Of a stretch of 64,000 nucleotides of DNA, positions 55,590 to 62,634 are shown one piece after another. This DNA is from an uncultured Flavobacteriales bacterium (GTDB lineage Bacteria; Bacteroidota; Bacteroidia; Flavobacteriales_G; Salibacteraceae). The position numbers and the translations under genes are program-made. Numbering within the stretch: position 1 is the first letter of the stretch; each line of letters starts with the position of its first letter. The notes under the pieces are model-generated. The model worked only from the letters and a program-made list of their open reading frames with translations. It was not told the DNA's origin and made no database searches. The stretch spans positions 1-64,000 of the forward strand of contig CALCCE010000010.1 of NCBI GenBank assembly GCA_937899835.1, given 5' to 3'.

Positions 55590-55997
55590 TTACTCATCCA
55601 AACGAATCAGATAGAAAAATCCTCGCAGGGCTTCCTGTATCGGTGGTAGGGACAGGCGGAAAAAATACCGGTCGCTCGGTAAAAATGACCCGTCGGTAGT
55701 AGCCCCTTTCCAAGTGTTGTTGTAAAGTGACCACTGACCGACAAGTATCCCGAACTTATCGTAAATAAATAGTTGATTCTCAGAATAGTGTTCTAAACCC
55801 TCAATAATGAAAGAGGTTGTGGAACTGTCGGCACCTAAAAAAAAGTATTTAGGAATTCTCACAAGATGTCCAAACTGGTCTTTCCAGAAATAAACAGGAG
55901 GCTCTTGTTCGAGGTCTACTTCGAGACGGAGATCACTAAACTCGAGGCTTCTCTCCGCCCAAAAATCGTTGTCTTCCTGAACCATTGCCTTTAACAT
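55590..55997 (-). CDS. Orphan gliding-motility-type (CHU_C) C-terminal domain
   Basis: A 135-residue product consisting almost wholly of a T9SS type B sorting (CHU_C) domain: VRIPKYFFLGADSSTTSFII, EGLEHYSENQLFIYDKFG, ILVGQWSLYNNTWKGAT and LPSDRYFFRLSLPP with GFFYLIRLDE at the end. The usual NGDGxND segment is replaced by LGADSSTTSF. No signal peptide and no upstream passenger are visible, so it cannot follow the normal route of such proteins, which have long N-terminal passenger domains and a Sec signal. It may be the remnant of a larger gene cut down by deletion, or an intracellular reuse. It begins 34 bases after the terminator of the structured RNA and ends convergent with the LytTR gene. 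Confidence 0.6.
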   Translation of the reverse strand: MLKAMVQEDNDFWAERSLEFSDLRLEVDLEQEPPVYFWKDQFGHLVRIPKYFFLGADSSTTSFIIEGLEHYSENQLFIYDKFGILVGQWSLYNNTWKGATTDGSFLPSDRYFFRLSLPPIQEALRGFFYLIRLDE

Positions 55998-56030
55998 GCC
56001 GTTGCGATGAATCTAAATAGGTTTTGTTAG

Positions 56031-56078
56031 AAAAAGATCGGCGGGGGAGCACCCAAACAACTCCCCCATTCGCCGATC
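56031..56078 (-). terminator. Intrinsic terminator of the structured RNA
   Basis: On the minus strand an 8-base stem GATCGGCG/CGCCGATC (56078-56071 with 56043-56036) is topped by GGGGAG/CTCCCC with an 11-base loop and a 4-base bulge, and is followed by TTTTT (56035-56031). This is the strongest terminator in the window. Confidence 0.8.
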
Positions 56079-56248
56079 GATCTTGAAGTCCGACGGGCTC
56101 ACGCCCATGAGCCTGCCGAACACCCTTACCCTTCTTACTCTCTCGTCGGAGCAGAAGGGCTACCCGACTATGATTACTTTTGTTATCGTTCCTTCTATCA
56201 CTTTATCGCTCTTCTTCAAATCAAGATGTCTTCTTCTCTTCGATAACT
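56031..56248 (-). ncRNA. Candidate structured RNA with H-type pseudoknot
   Basis: No protein gene fits the 378-base gap 55998-56374, but its minus strand has strong pairing. CCCTTCT (56159-56153) pairs with AGAAGGG (56135-56129). The loop of that stem contains TCCGACG (56150-56144), which pairs with CGTCGGA (56095-56089), giving an H-type pseudoknot with loops of 2, 8 and 33 bases; the last loop holds a GGCTCA/TGAGCC hairpin (56113-56096) directly abutting the second stem. ATCTTGA (56227-56221) pairs with TCAAGAT (56086-56080), enclosing everything. An intrinsic terminator follows. A one-mismatch -7 box (TTACTTTG, 56262-56255) would set the 5' end near 56248. An RNA of about 215 bases is inferred; it fits no family I can name. 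Confidence 0.55.
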
Positions 56249-56259
56249 TGATACCAAAG

Positions 56260-56280
56260 TAAGGGCATGTGCAGCCCTTA
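56260..56280. repeat. Inverted repeat between NDH-2 and the structured RNA
   Basis: TAAGGGC and GCCCTTA form a perfect 7-base stem with a 7-base loop. It lies after the NDH-2 stop and overlaps the candidate -7 box of the RNA. There is no T-tract, so it is not a good terminator. Confidence 0.35.
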
Positions 56281-56374
56281 CCATAATTTTATCGGTGACT
56301 GGACAAATTCGAGGGTTGAAGTGTGGCCTTTACACCGTGGGCGATTCGTCCCAAATAGTGCAGGATTGGGCGTC

Positions 56375-57682
56375 TTAGGATCGATTATCGGCTGCTTTGC
56401 CCATGCCGGCTCGAGGATTAAAGGGACGGATGATCAGGCGAATTCCACGGTCGAAATTCAAGTAACTCCATGCCCAGTTGGCCAAAACGATGAGTTTGTT
56501 GCGAAAACCTACTAAGGCAATCAGGTGGATAAACATCCAAACAAACCAGGCGAAAAAGCCCTGAAAGTGGAGTTTAGGCAGGTCTACTACGGCCAGGTTT
56601 CGCCCTACGGTTGCCATGGAGCCCTTGTCGCTGTAGTTAAAAGCCTTCCATTTTTTGTGTTTCAGCTGAGCTCTAAGGTTTTTGGCAAGCAGTTTTCCTT
56701 GTTGAATCGCAGGCTGGGCCATCATAGGGTGACCTTGTGGCCATTCTTCACTCTCCATAAATGCGAGGTCTCCTATTGCATAGATGTTTTTAAGGCCTGG
56801 AATACGGTTAAATTCGTCTACCTGTATGCGGTTTCCTTTTACCAAAGATGCTGCGGGTATCCCTGGCAGGCTAACCGCCTTCACACCAGCAGCCCATATC
56901 AAACTGCGGGTTTTGAAAGAGACTTTGGAATCGTTGGTGGTAATGAGCTGTCCGTCAAAATCAGATACCAACGTATTGAGCCAAACCTGCACGCCCAATT
57001 GCTCCAAAAACCGAAGTGCTTTTGCCGATGATTCCTCCGACATGGCCGCCAGAACTCTTGGGGCTCCTTCAATCAAATGAATGTTCATCCGGCGGATGTC
57101 CAAATCAGGGTAATCGTTGTGGAGCACGTGTTTTTTGAGTTCTGCCAGTGCCCCGGCCAACTCTACACCAGTAGGGCCACCACCGGCAATTACAAAGTTC
57201 ATTAGACTCTCTCGCTCTTCCAGTTGGTTGGTGAGCAAAGCAGCTTCAAAATTTTGCAACATCAAACTCCGCAAATCCAAGGATTCGGGTACCGTTTTCA
57301 TGCCCATGCTGTACCGCTCTAACTGAGCATTACCAAAAAAGTTGGTGGTAGAACCGGTAGCTAAAACCAGATGATCGTAGTGTAAGGCCCCAATATTGGT
57401 TTTAATCTCGTTGGCTTCAATATCGATGTGTTCCACTTCTGCCATTCGAAAGAAGATGTTCGATTGCCTTTTGAATACTTTTCGCAAGGGATAAGCTATA
57501 CTATCTGGCTCAAGACCAGCTGTAGCGACCTGATAGAGCAAGGGTTGAAAAGTATGGTAGTTGTGGCGGTCGATCAACACCACTTGATAGGCTTGGCCGC
57601 GGAGTCCTTTGGCCAATTCTAAGCCTCCAAAACCTCCACCCACGATTACTACGCGGGGTTGGGTTACATCAGGAATGTTCAT
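56375..57682 (-). CDS. Type II NADH dehydrogenase (NDH-2)
   Basis: A 435-residue flavoprotein that passes electrons from NADH to quinone without pumping protons. RVVIVGGGFGGLELAKGLRG is the FAD site, HNYHTFQPLLYQVATAGLEP the conserved quinone-oxidoreductase segment, HLVLATGSTTNFFGN and VIAGGGPTGVELAGALAELK the second Rossmann site for NADH, and IYAIGDLAFMES the FAD contact. The C-terminus (FFAWFVWMFIHLIALVGFRN, then ANWAWSYLNFDRGIRLI) is the membrane-binding helix pair of NDH-2. Length is normal. Monocistronic as far as visible. Confidence 0.94.
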   Translation of the reverse strand: MNIPDVTQPRVVIVGGGFGGLELAKGLRGQAYQVVLIDRHNYHTFQPLLYQVATAGLEPDSIAYPLRKVFKRQSNIFFRMAEVEHIDIEANEIKTNIGALHYDHLVLATGSTTNFFGNAQLERYSMGMKTVPESLDLRSLMLQNFEAALLTNQLEERESLMNFVIAGGGPTGVELAGALAELKKHVLHNDYPDLDIRRMNIHLIEGAPRVLAAMSEESSAKALRFLEQLGVQVWLNTLVSDFDGQLITTNDSKVSFKTRSLIWAAGVKAVSLPGIPAASLVKGNRIQVDEFNRIPGLKNIYAIGDLAFMESEEWPQGHPMMAQPAIQQGKLLAKNLRAQLKHKKWKAFNYSDKGSMATVGRNLAVVDLPKLHFQGFFAWFVWMFIHLIALVGFRNKLIVLANWAWSYLNFDRGIRLIIRPFNPRAGMGKAADNRS

Positions 57683-60041: not shown

Positions 60042-60087
60042 CCGGGTAGTCAAAACTATGGTTTGTGCCCGCTCACTGCAAAAGCGA

Positions 60088-60134
60088 AAGCCCGCCCGTC
60101 AGAAAGGCAGGGCTTTCCGAATCGGGGCGGGCTT
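60088..60134 (-). terminator. Terminator after gldN, with competing stems
   Basis: AAGCCCGCCC (60088-60097) pairs with GGGCGGGCTT (60125-60134). Read on the minus strand it is followed by TCGCTTTTG, fitting a terminator for gldN. GAAAGCCC (60086-60093) can instead pair with GGGCTTTC (60110-60117), so two mutually exclusive stems share one arm. Confidence 0.6.
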
Positions 60135-60162
60135 GTAGTAATTGAGGGATCAGAAAATGGGT

Positions 60163-61077
60163 TTAGTAGCTGAAGAGGTCGTGTTCCATGTTGAACATTT
60201 CGTCGTGTAGCCGTTGGGCCTCCAACAAGGCATCGATGCCTTGCTTGTATTCGGAGATTTCCCTGCCGTAGACATTGCTTACCTTGATGATGGTACTACT
60301 AAACCGCCGTTTGTAGAACAAATCGTCGTAAGACAAGGGCGCCATATCGTTGCCACCGAGGAACACTTCTGCATTGGAAAATTCAAACCGGGCCTGTGGA
60401 AAGTAAATCCAAAACAGTGGCTTTACACCTCTTACTTCTCCATAAGCGTCTCTTACCTCGATGTAAGGACAAATACCTACAATCCGGCATTCCATTACTC
60501 CTCGCGCTTTGTCGATGAACCAATCTTCTTTGAGTTCATAATAAATGATGTCTTTGGATTCAATATAAGTTTCAACCATTGTAGGTTCGGGTGGACCACC
60601 GTTGATGGGTTCAGTCCAAACGGTATCGCGTTCGATCAACAGGTTTTCTAAATCTTGCAAGGTCATGGCTGTGGTGAATCCATCGTCGAGGTTAAGCGGA
60701 CCAGGGCTATAAGCAGTGATGGTTCCGGTTTCGAGTACTCCGGATTTGATCACATCAAACAAACTTTTGCGAGCGTTTATCGGCTGATCGGGGTAACGCA
60801 ATGGATGGTTTATCTTTTGCCGCAAGTCGATTCTGCGCCATACCCTCCGGGTCCACATAAGGTCGGCTTCGCGCATCAGCGACCCTTGCGGATAGGTGAT
60901 CGGCCTGCGGTTGGGCACATTGTCTCTTACGTAGATGCCATCAAGAACATCGGATTGTCCCGCAGGAGAAAAGGAATTGGAGGATGAAAATTGAACGTTG
61001 ATATCGCCTTCATCAATTTGGGCGAAGGCAGAAGTGAGGAAACTCCCGAACAACACCCACAAAAAAACTTGCTTCAT
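60163..61077 (-). CDS. gldN: GldN, T9SS/gliding motility periplasmic ring protein
   Basis: A 304-residue exported protein. MKQVFLWVLFGSFLTSAFAQ is a signal peptide. GldN features follow: SLMREADLMWTRRVWRRIDL, then RKSLFDVIKSGVLETGTITA, DIIYYELKEDWFIDKARGVM, RIVGICPYIEVRDAYGEVRG, KPLFWIYFPQARFEFSNAEV and the C-terminal YDDLFYKRRFSSTIIKVSN. GldN forms, with GldK, the periplasmic ring under the outer membrane that T9SS needs to export its cargo. gldK, gldL and gldM are not adjacent here, which differs from the usual gldKLMN order. Preceded by the paralogue at 61272 and a structured leader. Confidence 0.93.
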   Translation of the reverse strand: MKQVFLWVLFGSFLTSAFAQIDEGDINVQFSSSNSFSPAGQSDVLDGIYVRDNVPNRRPITYPQGSLMREADLMWTRRVWRRIDLRQKINHPLRYPDQPINARKSLFDVIKSGVLETGTITAYSPGPLNLDDGFTTAMTLQDLENLLIERDTVWTEPINGGPPEPTMVETYIESKDIIYYELKEDWFIDKARGVMECRIVGICPYIEVRDAYGEVRGVKPLFWIYFPQARFEFSNAEVFLGGNDMAPLSYDDLFYKRRFSSTIIKVSNVYGREISEYKQGIDALLEAQRLHDEMFNMEHDLFSY

Positions 61078-61179
61078 GGTAGAGTGGCTGTAGGTTAAAC
61101 ATGAGCCGTTCCAATGCAGAAAACGGCAAAAACGTAAATAAAAAACAGGGTTCCCTCCCGGAGGAAGGAAAATAGAGGC

Positions 61180-61246
61180 AAGAAAAATCCTGGAAAAGGA
61201 TGGGGTTCCGGAACAAACCGGGTCTTCGTCAACCCCATTAACGAAG
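61180..61246 (-). promoter_or_regulatory. Pseudoknot-plus-hairpin element between the GldN paralogues
   Basis: On the minus strand CTTCGT (61246-61241) pairs with ACGAAG (61229-61224), and TGGGGTT (61237-61231), inside that loop, pairs with AACCCCA (61207-61201), an H-type pseudoknot with connecting segments of 3, 1 and 16 bases. A second short hairpin ATCCT/AGGAT (61200-61196 with 61190-61186) followed by TTTTC ends the element. It lies 100 or more bases before the gldN start, so it may be the 3' end of the upstream transcript or an attenuating leader. Confidence 0.4.
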
Positions 61247-61271
61247 CAGGATAGAAGATATTGTAATGCGA

Positions 61272-62135
61272 TTAATAAGACCAGAAATCGGCCTCTAAAA
61301 ATTGCACCTGAGTAGCGGCCGCTTCCGATTTTATCAAGGCTTCACGGCCGTTATAGGGGGTGAGAAAGCCTTTGGGGTTAACAGTGGATTGTTCTATGAC
61401 GGTACGGTTGAGGTAGCGACTTTGAAACAAGGCATCGTAATTGGCCAGGGCTGGGTTGTTTCTTGATACGCCGTGAACCTGAGCATTGGCCAGTATGCCT
61501 CTGGCTTGTGGATAGTAAACCCAAAACAAGGGCTGATATCCTCTGAATATACCTTCTTTATCGTAGCGGGAAACCATGGGGCACAAGCCAATTACCCGGC
61601 GGGTCATCTCATTGGTTCGGGAGTCGAAAAACCAAATTTCTTTCACCTCATAGATCACCACATCCTGGGTGCTGATGGGGCTATCGTCTCCTTTGGGTTT
61701 AGAGGCAAAACCAGCAAGCGTATCCGATTGGCGCATGATCATGGTCATCACCTGTTGAGGGCTGAGGGCTACCGAAAAGCTTTCATCTGCTCCGGTTGGT
61801 CCTGCCTCATAGGCGGTGAGCGTACCCTGAATCACGATGGCGCACAACAAAACATCAAATAGGCTTCGGGTAGAATCGGTCGCGATGTCGGGCAACTTCA
61901 AAGATCGGTTGCGTTTTTCACGCAGGTCGATCCGGCTTTTGCCCCGTTTCATCCACATCACATCGGCCTCTCGGGTTTTGGGATAAGGTTCCGGGAGCAC
62001 AATGGAGTCTTTTACACGCATAGCACTTCCCGGGTCGTCTACACCTGCAAGTGGACCACAAAAAGACTGACTTTGTGCTGTGAAAGGGAACAGGAGAATG
62101 GGGAGCAGCCAAATTGCTGACCTGAAGGTAGTCAT
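61272..62135 (-). CDS. Second GldN-family protein (GldO-like)
   Basis: A 287-residue paralogue of the next gene. ATG 62135 gives MTTFRSAIWLLPILLFPFTA, a signal peptide. TREADVMWMKRGKSRIDLRE, RSLFDVLLCAIVIQGTLTAY, DVVIYEVKEIWFFDSRTNEM, RRVIGLCPMVSRYDKEGIFR and QPLFWVYYPQARGILANAQV parallel the gldN motifs one by one. In Flavobacterium johnsoniae gldN and gldO are also tandem copies, with GldO partly replacing GldN. Here sequence identity is low, so the copy is old or specialised. It starts 43 bases after the 151-residue membrane-protein gene. Confidence 0.88.
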   Translation of the reverse strand: MTTFRSAIWLLPILLFPFTAQSQSFCGPLAGVDDPGSAMRVKDSIVLPEPYPKTREADVMWMKRGKSRIDLREKRNRSLKLPDIATDSTRSLFDVLLCAIVIQGTLTAYEAGPTGADESFSVALSPQQVMTMIMRQSDTLAGFASKPKGDDSPISTQDVVIYEVKEIWFFDSRTNEMTRRVIGLCPMVSRYDKEGIFRGYQPLFWVYYPQARGILANAQVHGVSRNNPALANYDALFQSRYLNRTVIEQSTVNPKGFLTPYNGREALIKSEAAATQVQFLEADFWSY

Positions 62136-62178
62136 TGGGTGAAAAACTGAGAGAAGCAAGAAACGTGTTACAAACGCA

Positions 62179-62634
62179 TTACTGCACCACTTCAGTATCC
62201 CGCACGTTTTTCCAAACCATCCAACCGTAGAGCAAATTGAGAACACCGGGGAGGTAAACCAGCCCAGAATGCAAAGAGATGTCGAAATCTCGCCGGATCA
62301 AGGTCACCAATAAAAAAAGCAAACCGGGCGCCATGAAGTTCAGCAACTTAAACTGTTTGCCCAAAGCCCGGATACGCGAAGAAAATTGCAAAAAATAAAG
62401 CAGGTTCAGCCCACAATTGAAGACAGTAGCTGCAAGGTAAGCCATCAGTGGGGGCATCAGGATGTCGCCATTGTCCGGGTCGTTGTTGGAAAAAATCACC
62501 ATGTCGCCCCTGAAGGCACCTGGATTGAGCAACCGCACGACGATGACCATTACCAACAAAAAGAAAGGAACCGAAATAATAATGTACTTCAACAACCCGC
62601 TGGCCAACTCTTCTTCTTTCAGTTTCCGACTCAT
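62179..62634 (-). CDS. Small four-helix membrane protein of unknown function
   Basis: A 151-residue protein with four hydrophobic helices (about residues 15-38, 60-82, 98-112 and 122-142) and a charged start MSRKLKEEELASG. Between helices 1 and 2 it has IFSNNDPDNGDILMPP, and between 2 and 3 RIRALGKQFKLLN. I do not recognise a family. It overlaps the bestrophin-like gene by four bases and is thus co-translated with it. Confidence 0.7.
   Translation of the reverse strand: MSRKLKEEELASGLLKYIIISVPFFLLVMVIVVRLLNPGAFRGDMVIFSNNDPDNGDILMPPLMAYLAATVFNCGLNLLYFLQFSSRIRALGKQFKLLNFMAPGLLFLLVTLIRRDFDISLHSGLVYLPGVLNLLYGWMVWKNVRDTEVVQ

Follow-up and report, generated by a model that had tools for sequence, protein, structure and literature searches.

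The question raised by this locus is what kind of element occupies the longest gap between main ORFs in a 64-kb window, the whole stretch of DNA that was analyzed, which was taken from contig C10 of a 6.9 Mb Bacteroidota draft genome. The gap spans 55998–56374 (377 nt) and the next longest is 248 nt; thus, the locus is the only gap above 300 bases, as an earlier note on this DNA had observed. That note proposed that the minus strand of the gap encodes an undescribed structured RNA with a nested pseudoknot. The gap, its flanking genes, and the candidate are arranged as follows.

56375–57682, minus strand: ndh (type II NADH dehydrogenase; Pyr_redox_2 and NDH2_C domains), upstream of the gap and on the same strand as the candidate RNA
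56031–56249, minus strand: candidate small RNA or structured 3' RNA of approximately 219 nt (MFE −78.5, z −4.29), with the top stem count of the window
55590–55997, minus strand: downstream ORF of 135 aa with a T9SS type B sorting domain (CHU_C; PF13585, 1.2e-10; TIGR04131, 4.4e-11)

All stems of the proposed structure, including its internal hairpin, were found as perfect pairs on the minus strand where the earlier note had located them, and two further 7-base stems absent from it were identified.

56227–56221 and 56086–56080, minus strand: closing stem P2, ATCTTGA/TCAAGAT, perfect over 7 bases, long-range, pair probability 0.70–0.92
56159–56153 and 56135–56129, minus strand: stem P3, CCCTTCT/AGAAGGG, perfect over 7 bases
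56150–56144 and 56095–56089, minus strand: claimed pseudoknot stem P4, TCCGACG/CGTCGGA, perfect over 7 bases, interlocked with P3, pair probability 0
56113–56096, minus strand: internal hairpin GGCTCA/TGAGCC, perfectly paired
56247 and 56182, minus strand: further 7-base stem, GTTATCG/CGATAAC
56262 and 56174, minus strand: further 7-base stem, TTACTTT/AAAGTAA

The minus strand of the gap accordingly holds five perfect 7-base stems and a strong terminator. Perfect stems of at least 7 bases numbered 8 in 56031–56262, compared with 1.15 in dinucleotide shuffles (n = 1000), none of which reached 8; with the terminator excluded, the numbers were 5 and 0.57, and none of 1000 shuffles reached 5. When 217-nt windows across the 64 kb served as the background (n = 1276; this stretch rather than the whole genome), no other equaled the candidate's stem count of 7. 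With the terminator excluded, none of 1000 shuffles showed the layout of a closing stem plus an interlock; with it included, 1% did. A lone interlocked pair is weak evidence because 13% of full-stretch shuffles contain one (2.3% without the terminator). Moreover, the word GTCGG/CCGAC or its near-copies recur in several stem arms, and the stems are therefore partly one repeated motif, not independent events. The view that the arrangement is hard to explain by chance thus held for the number of stems and the overall layout, but not for the interlock by itself.

Folding energies also set this stretch apart. The MFE z score was −4.0 for 232 nt and about −4.3 for 56249–56031 on the minus strand, while the eleven next-longest gaps of the window, on either strand, lay between about −2.4 and +1.4. 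The lowest of these values (z −2.4 on the minus strand) belonged to the gap at 60042–60162, which ranks second in structure within the window, lies 3' of both flanking genes, and is probably a two-way terminator. At 60163–62246 on the minus strand, two adjoining GldN-like genes were noted, the first confirmed by Pfam and the second similar by eye, perhaps a gldN/gldO pair. Within the candidate, the 81-nt core upstream of the terminator retained a z score of −3.4, and the parts were distributed as follows.

56169–56249, minus strand: purine-rich, mostly unpaired 5' half, a possible seed region (z −0.56, no structure beyond chance)
56129–56159, minus strand: hairpin P3, CCCTTCT/AGAAGGG with an inner extension, pair probability 1.0 for 6 of 7 pairs
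56088–56121, minus strand: hairpin P5, GTTCGGC-A-GGCTCA...TGAGCC-C-GTCGGAC, pair probability 0.97–1.0
56031–56080, minus strand: intrinsic terminator, GATCGGCG..GGGGGAG / CTCCCCC..CGCCGATC, then TTTTT (MFE −27.5, z −3.95)

By sequence and folding computation, the candidate combines an excess of structure, a terminator, an open purine-rich 5' half, and two stable hairpins. The folding model supports an anatomy in which the open 5' half is followed by the two hairpins, perhaps closed by the 7-bp stem, and then by the intrinsic terminator.

The pseudoknot itself fared differently. A functional pseudoknotted RNA, such as a ribozyme, a riboswitch, or another compact fold, was suggested by perfect 7-base stems that interlock in two pairs, P3/P4 and P1/P2, and by a layout that the shuffles without the terminator never reproduced. 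However, the nested core reached −39.5 kcal/mol, while the best P4-free fold plus the P4 helix reached −36.7 kcal/mol before any pseudoknot penalty. According to the energy calculation, CCCTTCT/AGAAGGG takes up part of TCCGACG in its inner extension, and GTTCGGC...GTCGGAC takes up CGTCGGA. Because these more stable nested hairpins occupy both P4 strands, the H-type pseudoknot is unsupported, although its interlocked stems exist in the sequence. The case shows that no pseudoknot is needed for striking interlocked stems: nested hairpins and the recurrence of a short word can produce them. There is also a slim prospect of a new compact RNA class, so far confined to a single species, in which the two interlocked 7-base stem pairs would compete with the nested hairpins and the RNA would switch its conformation ahead of the terminator.

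Relatives and known families were then considered. Rfam, including Flavo-1, 6S, and 6S-Flavo, gave no match in the window at the gathering threshold and no relevant match in the gap even at E 10, which agrees with the description of the RNA as undescribed. What stands of the original interpretation is hence an RNA on the minus strand that is structured, ends in a terminator, and falls outside Rfam; the nested pseudoknot, whose strands lie in nested hairpins, does not. In 35 genomes of the family, blastn returned chance matches only. Two covariance models, R1 and R2 (169 and 81 positions), each built from this single sequence, found only the window itself in the same 35 genomes, with R1 at chance level and R2 silent elsewhere. 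No homolog was found with R1 in 42 genomes of the order or with both models in 395 genomes of the class, where such single-sequence models and the stricter filters for large sets can miss diverged homologs; the genomes searched included no second member of the source genus. Two R2 matches in other families (E 0.004 and 0.007 among the 395 genomes) look like chance, one being antisense within a 669-aa ORF and the other overlapping the end of a 429-aa ORF. As pseudoknotted classes are usually conserved across genera, the finding of no relative and the silence of Rfam count against such an RNA together with the energies, and we consider it quite unlikely.

Several other identities were rejected. 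A repeated element was dismissed as no second copy was found in the genome, and a mobile or phage origin because phage and plasmid matches were at chance level and viral contigs gave none. The real tmRNA (RF00023) lies on contig C147, with none in the window. A 6S or 6S-Flavo RNA was rejected since the window had no match and the fold is not 6S-like. Neither RF00013 nor RF01685 was found anywhere in this genome, but this genome-wide absence says little because RF00013 was also without a match in the Bacteroides control.

The terminator was described as very strong in the earlier note, and its energy and TTTTT tract bear this out. Its hairpin spans 56078–56036, and the T5 stands 3' of the hairpin on the minus strand only; hence, it serves that strand. 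The downstream CHU_C ORF starts approximately 34 nt past the terminator, and its leader might contain a transcription attenuator; the structured region comes first on this strand, then the terminator, and then the ORF, which would suit such a role. However, the computed folds contained no alternative antiterminator, and the terminator folded as its own unit. The 135-aa ORF is possibly a gene remnant because its export-sorting domain is present, yet an export signal was not visible by eye; in addition, a peptide-pattern search found no relatives of it in the collection of genome contigs searched. Attenuation is thus very improbable.

Upstream, the same terminator raises the possibility that the region is only a long 3' UTR with the terminator of the ndh mRNA, which would end 344 nt past the stop codon, the remainder being non-regulatory. 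The gene is the immediate upstream neighbor on this strand, the terminator at 56031–56080 is the first there with a good T run, and no good promoter was found between ndh and the candidate. The only promoter-like signal was the following.

56254–56262, minus strand: weak promoter-like −7 box TTACTTTGG, agreeing with the flavobacterial TAnnTTTG in 5 of its 6 fixed letters (consensus: PMC9723704)

In the same region, TACTTTGG agrees with motif SM5 over TAnnTTG and departs from it at the final Y (PMC9723704), and a −33 TTG element was not found upstream of the box. From its position, the box would place a transcription start near 56249. Good TAnnTTTG boxes stood upstream of other window genes, 10 of 51 in sense compared with 4 in antisense.

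The size of the gap and the structure within it count against a passive 3' UTR. The gaps 3' of ndh in 80 relatives were short (median 27.5 nt), and the hairpins 5' of the terminator also exceeded shuffles, as given for the core above. Transcription of ndh could stop earlier, though weakly, at a hairpin of 8 bp that has a short run of T (56281–56259). This hairpin corresponds to a perfect inverted repeat, GTAAGGGC-TGCACAT-GCCCTTAC (56259–56281), between ndh and the candidate; the T run is on the minus strand, the plus strand has an AT-rich tail, and the repeat may be an operator or a weak terminator for both directions. The best ndh relatives were in Flavobacteriales-type genomes, at approximately 60–64% protein identity. 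No homolog of the candidate was found beside ndh at 80 further loci, where synteny was not found and no neighbors were shared apart from weak kinase and regulator matches, and a conserved ndh 3' element was therefore rejected. Overall, a passive ndh 3' UTR remains a plausible, tentative reading, nearly as likely as a small RNA.

Coding content was considered as well. The stretch could be a remnant of coding sequence, either a minus-strand frame of 48 codons (56162–56013) or a hydrophobic plus-strand frame of 59 codons (56083–56262). A weak AraC helix-turn-helix match of the minus-strand frame is in its favor, but its E value of 0.12 is at chance level; PDB gave no match, and tblastn matches in the family had E values of 0.07 or worse, mostly in unrelated frames. 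Moreover, a strand rich in pyrimidines would be expected to yield a hydrophobic frame. A coding remnant accordingly has only a slender chance of being correct. The minus-strand frame carries a tandem GxLxGxSPxD pattern and runs through hairpin P5 and the terminator, whereas the plus-strand frame, opposite the RNA, has a hydrophobic end segment and is shaped like a small membrane peptide, although it probably just follows from the richness of this strand in pyrimidines.

Our preferred, though still tentative, explanation is a lineage-specific candidate small RNA of approximately 219 nt on the minus strand, with its 3' end set by the intrinsic terminator at 56031. Its structure is concentrated in the 3' core and the terminator (56080–56031), the 5' half is predicted to offer an accessible single-stranded seed, and conserved coding content was not found. 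Against it stand the poor promoter-like box, which lacks a −33 element, and the finding of no homolog among the genomes searched. The RNA would be transcribed from the weak promoter near 56254–56262 or released as the 3' end of ndh mRNA; its GA-rich 5' half might then base-pair with pyrimidine-rich stretches of target mRNAs, while the hairpins and terminator may serve RNA stability. A target scan over the window's genes was not significant, as 4% of shuffles were as good and the energies are unreliable. Overall, the element is of an ordinary kind, and its function is unproven. If transcribed, it would be one more orphan small RNA candidate from a branch of Bacteroidota that has been little studied.

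Among known systems, 6S RNA (RF00013, RF01685) is similar in length, but it forms a single long hairpin with a central bubble that the candidate does not. The Rfp small RNAs of Flavobacterium psychrophilum (PMC9723704) are structured intergenic transcripts of a related lineage, and 18 of 45 independent non-antisense transcripts there have strong predicted structure; transcription was mapped for them, whereas the candidate has only a poor promoter-like box. The closest comparison is with Bacteroides thetaiotaomicron, in which 27 of 49 high-confidence intergenic small RNAs are strain-specific (PMC7366714); for this reason, the missing relatives of the candidate neither support nor exclude a function. 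Bacteroides small RNAs are thought to function without obvious Hfq or ProQ homologs (PMC7366714). GibS of B. thetaiotaomicron, one of the published trans-acting small RNAs of Bacteroides, is 145 nt long, with a seed in its open 5' part followed by two hairpins and a terminator (PMC7366714). The candidate resembles GibS and the other intergenic small RNAs of that species in its intergenic position, size class, open 5' part, two hairpins, and intrinsic terminator; it differs in G+C content (50%, compared with an average of approximately 35%) and in its stronger hairpins, and the likeness is one of layout. By this analogy, the candidate would most likely base-pair by way of its open, GA-rich 5' arm, much as GibS uses its 5' seed.
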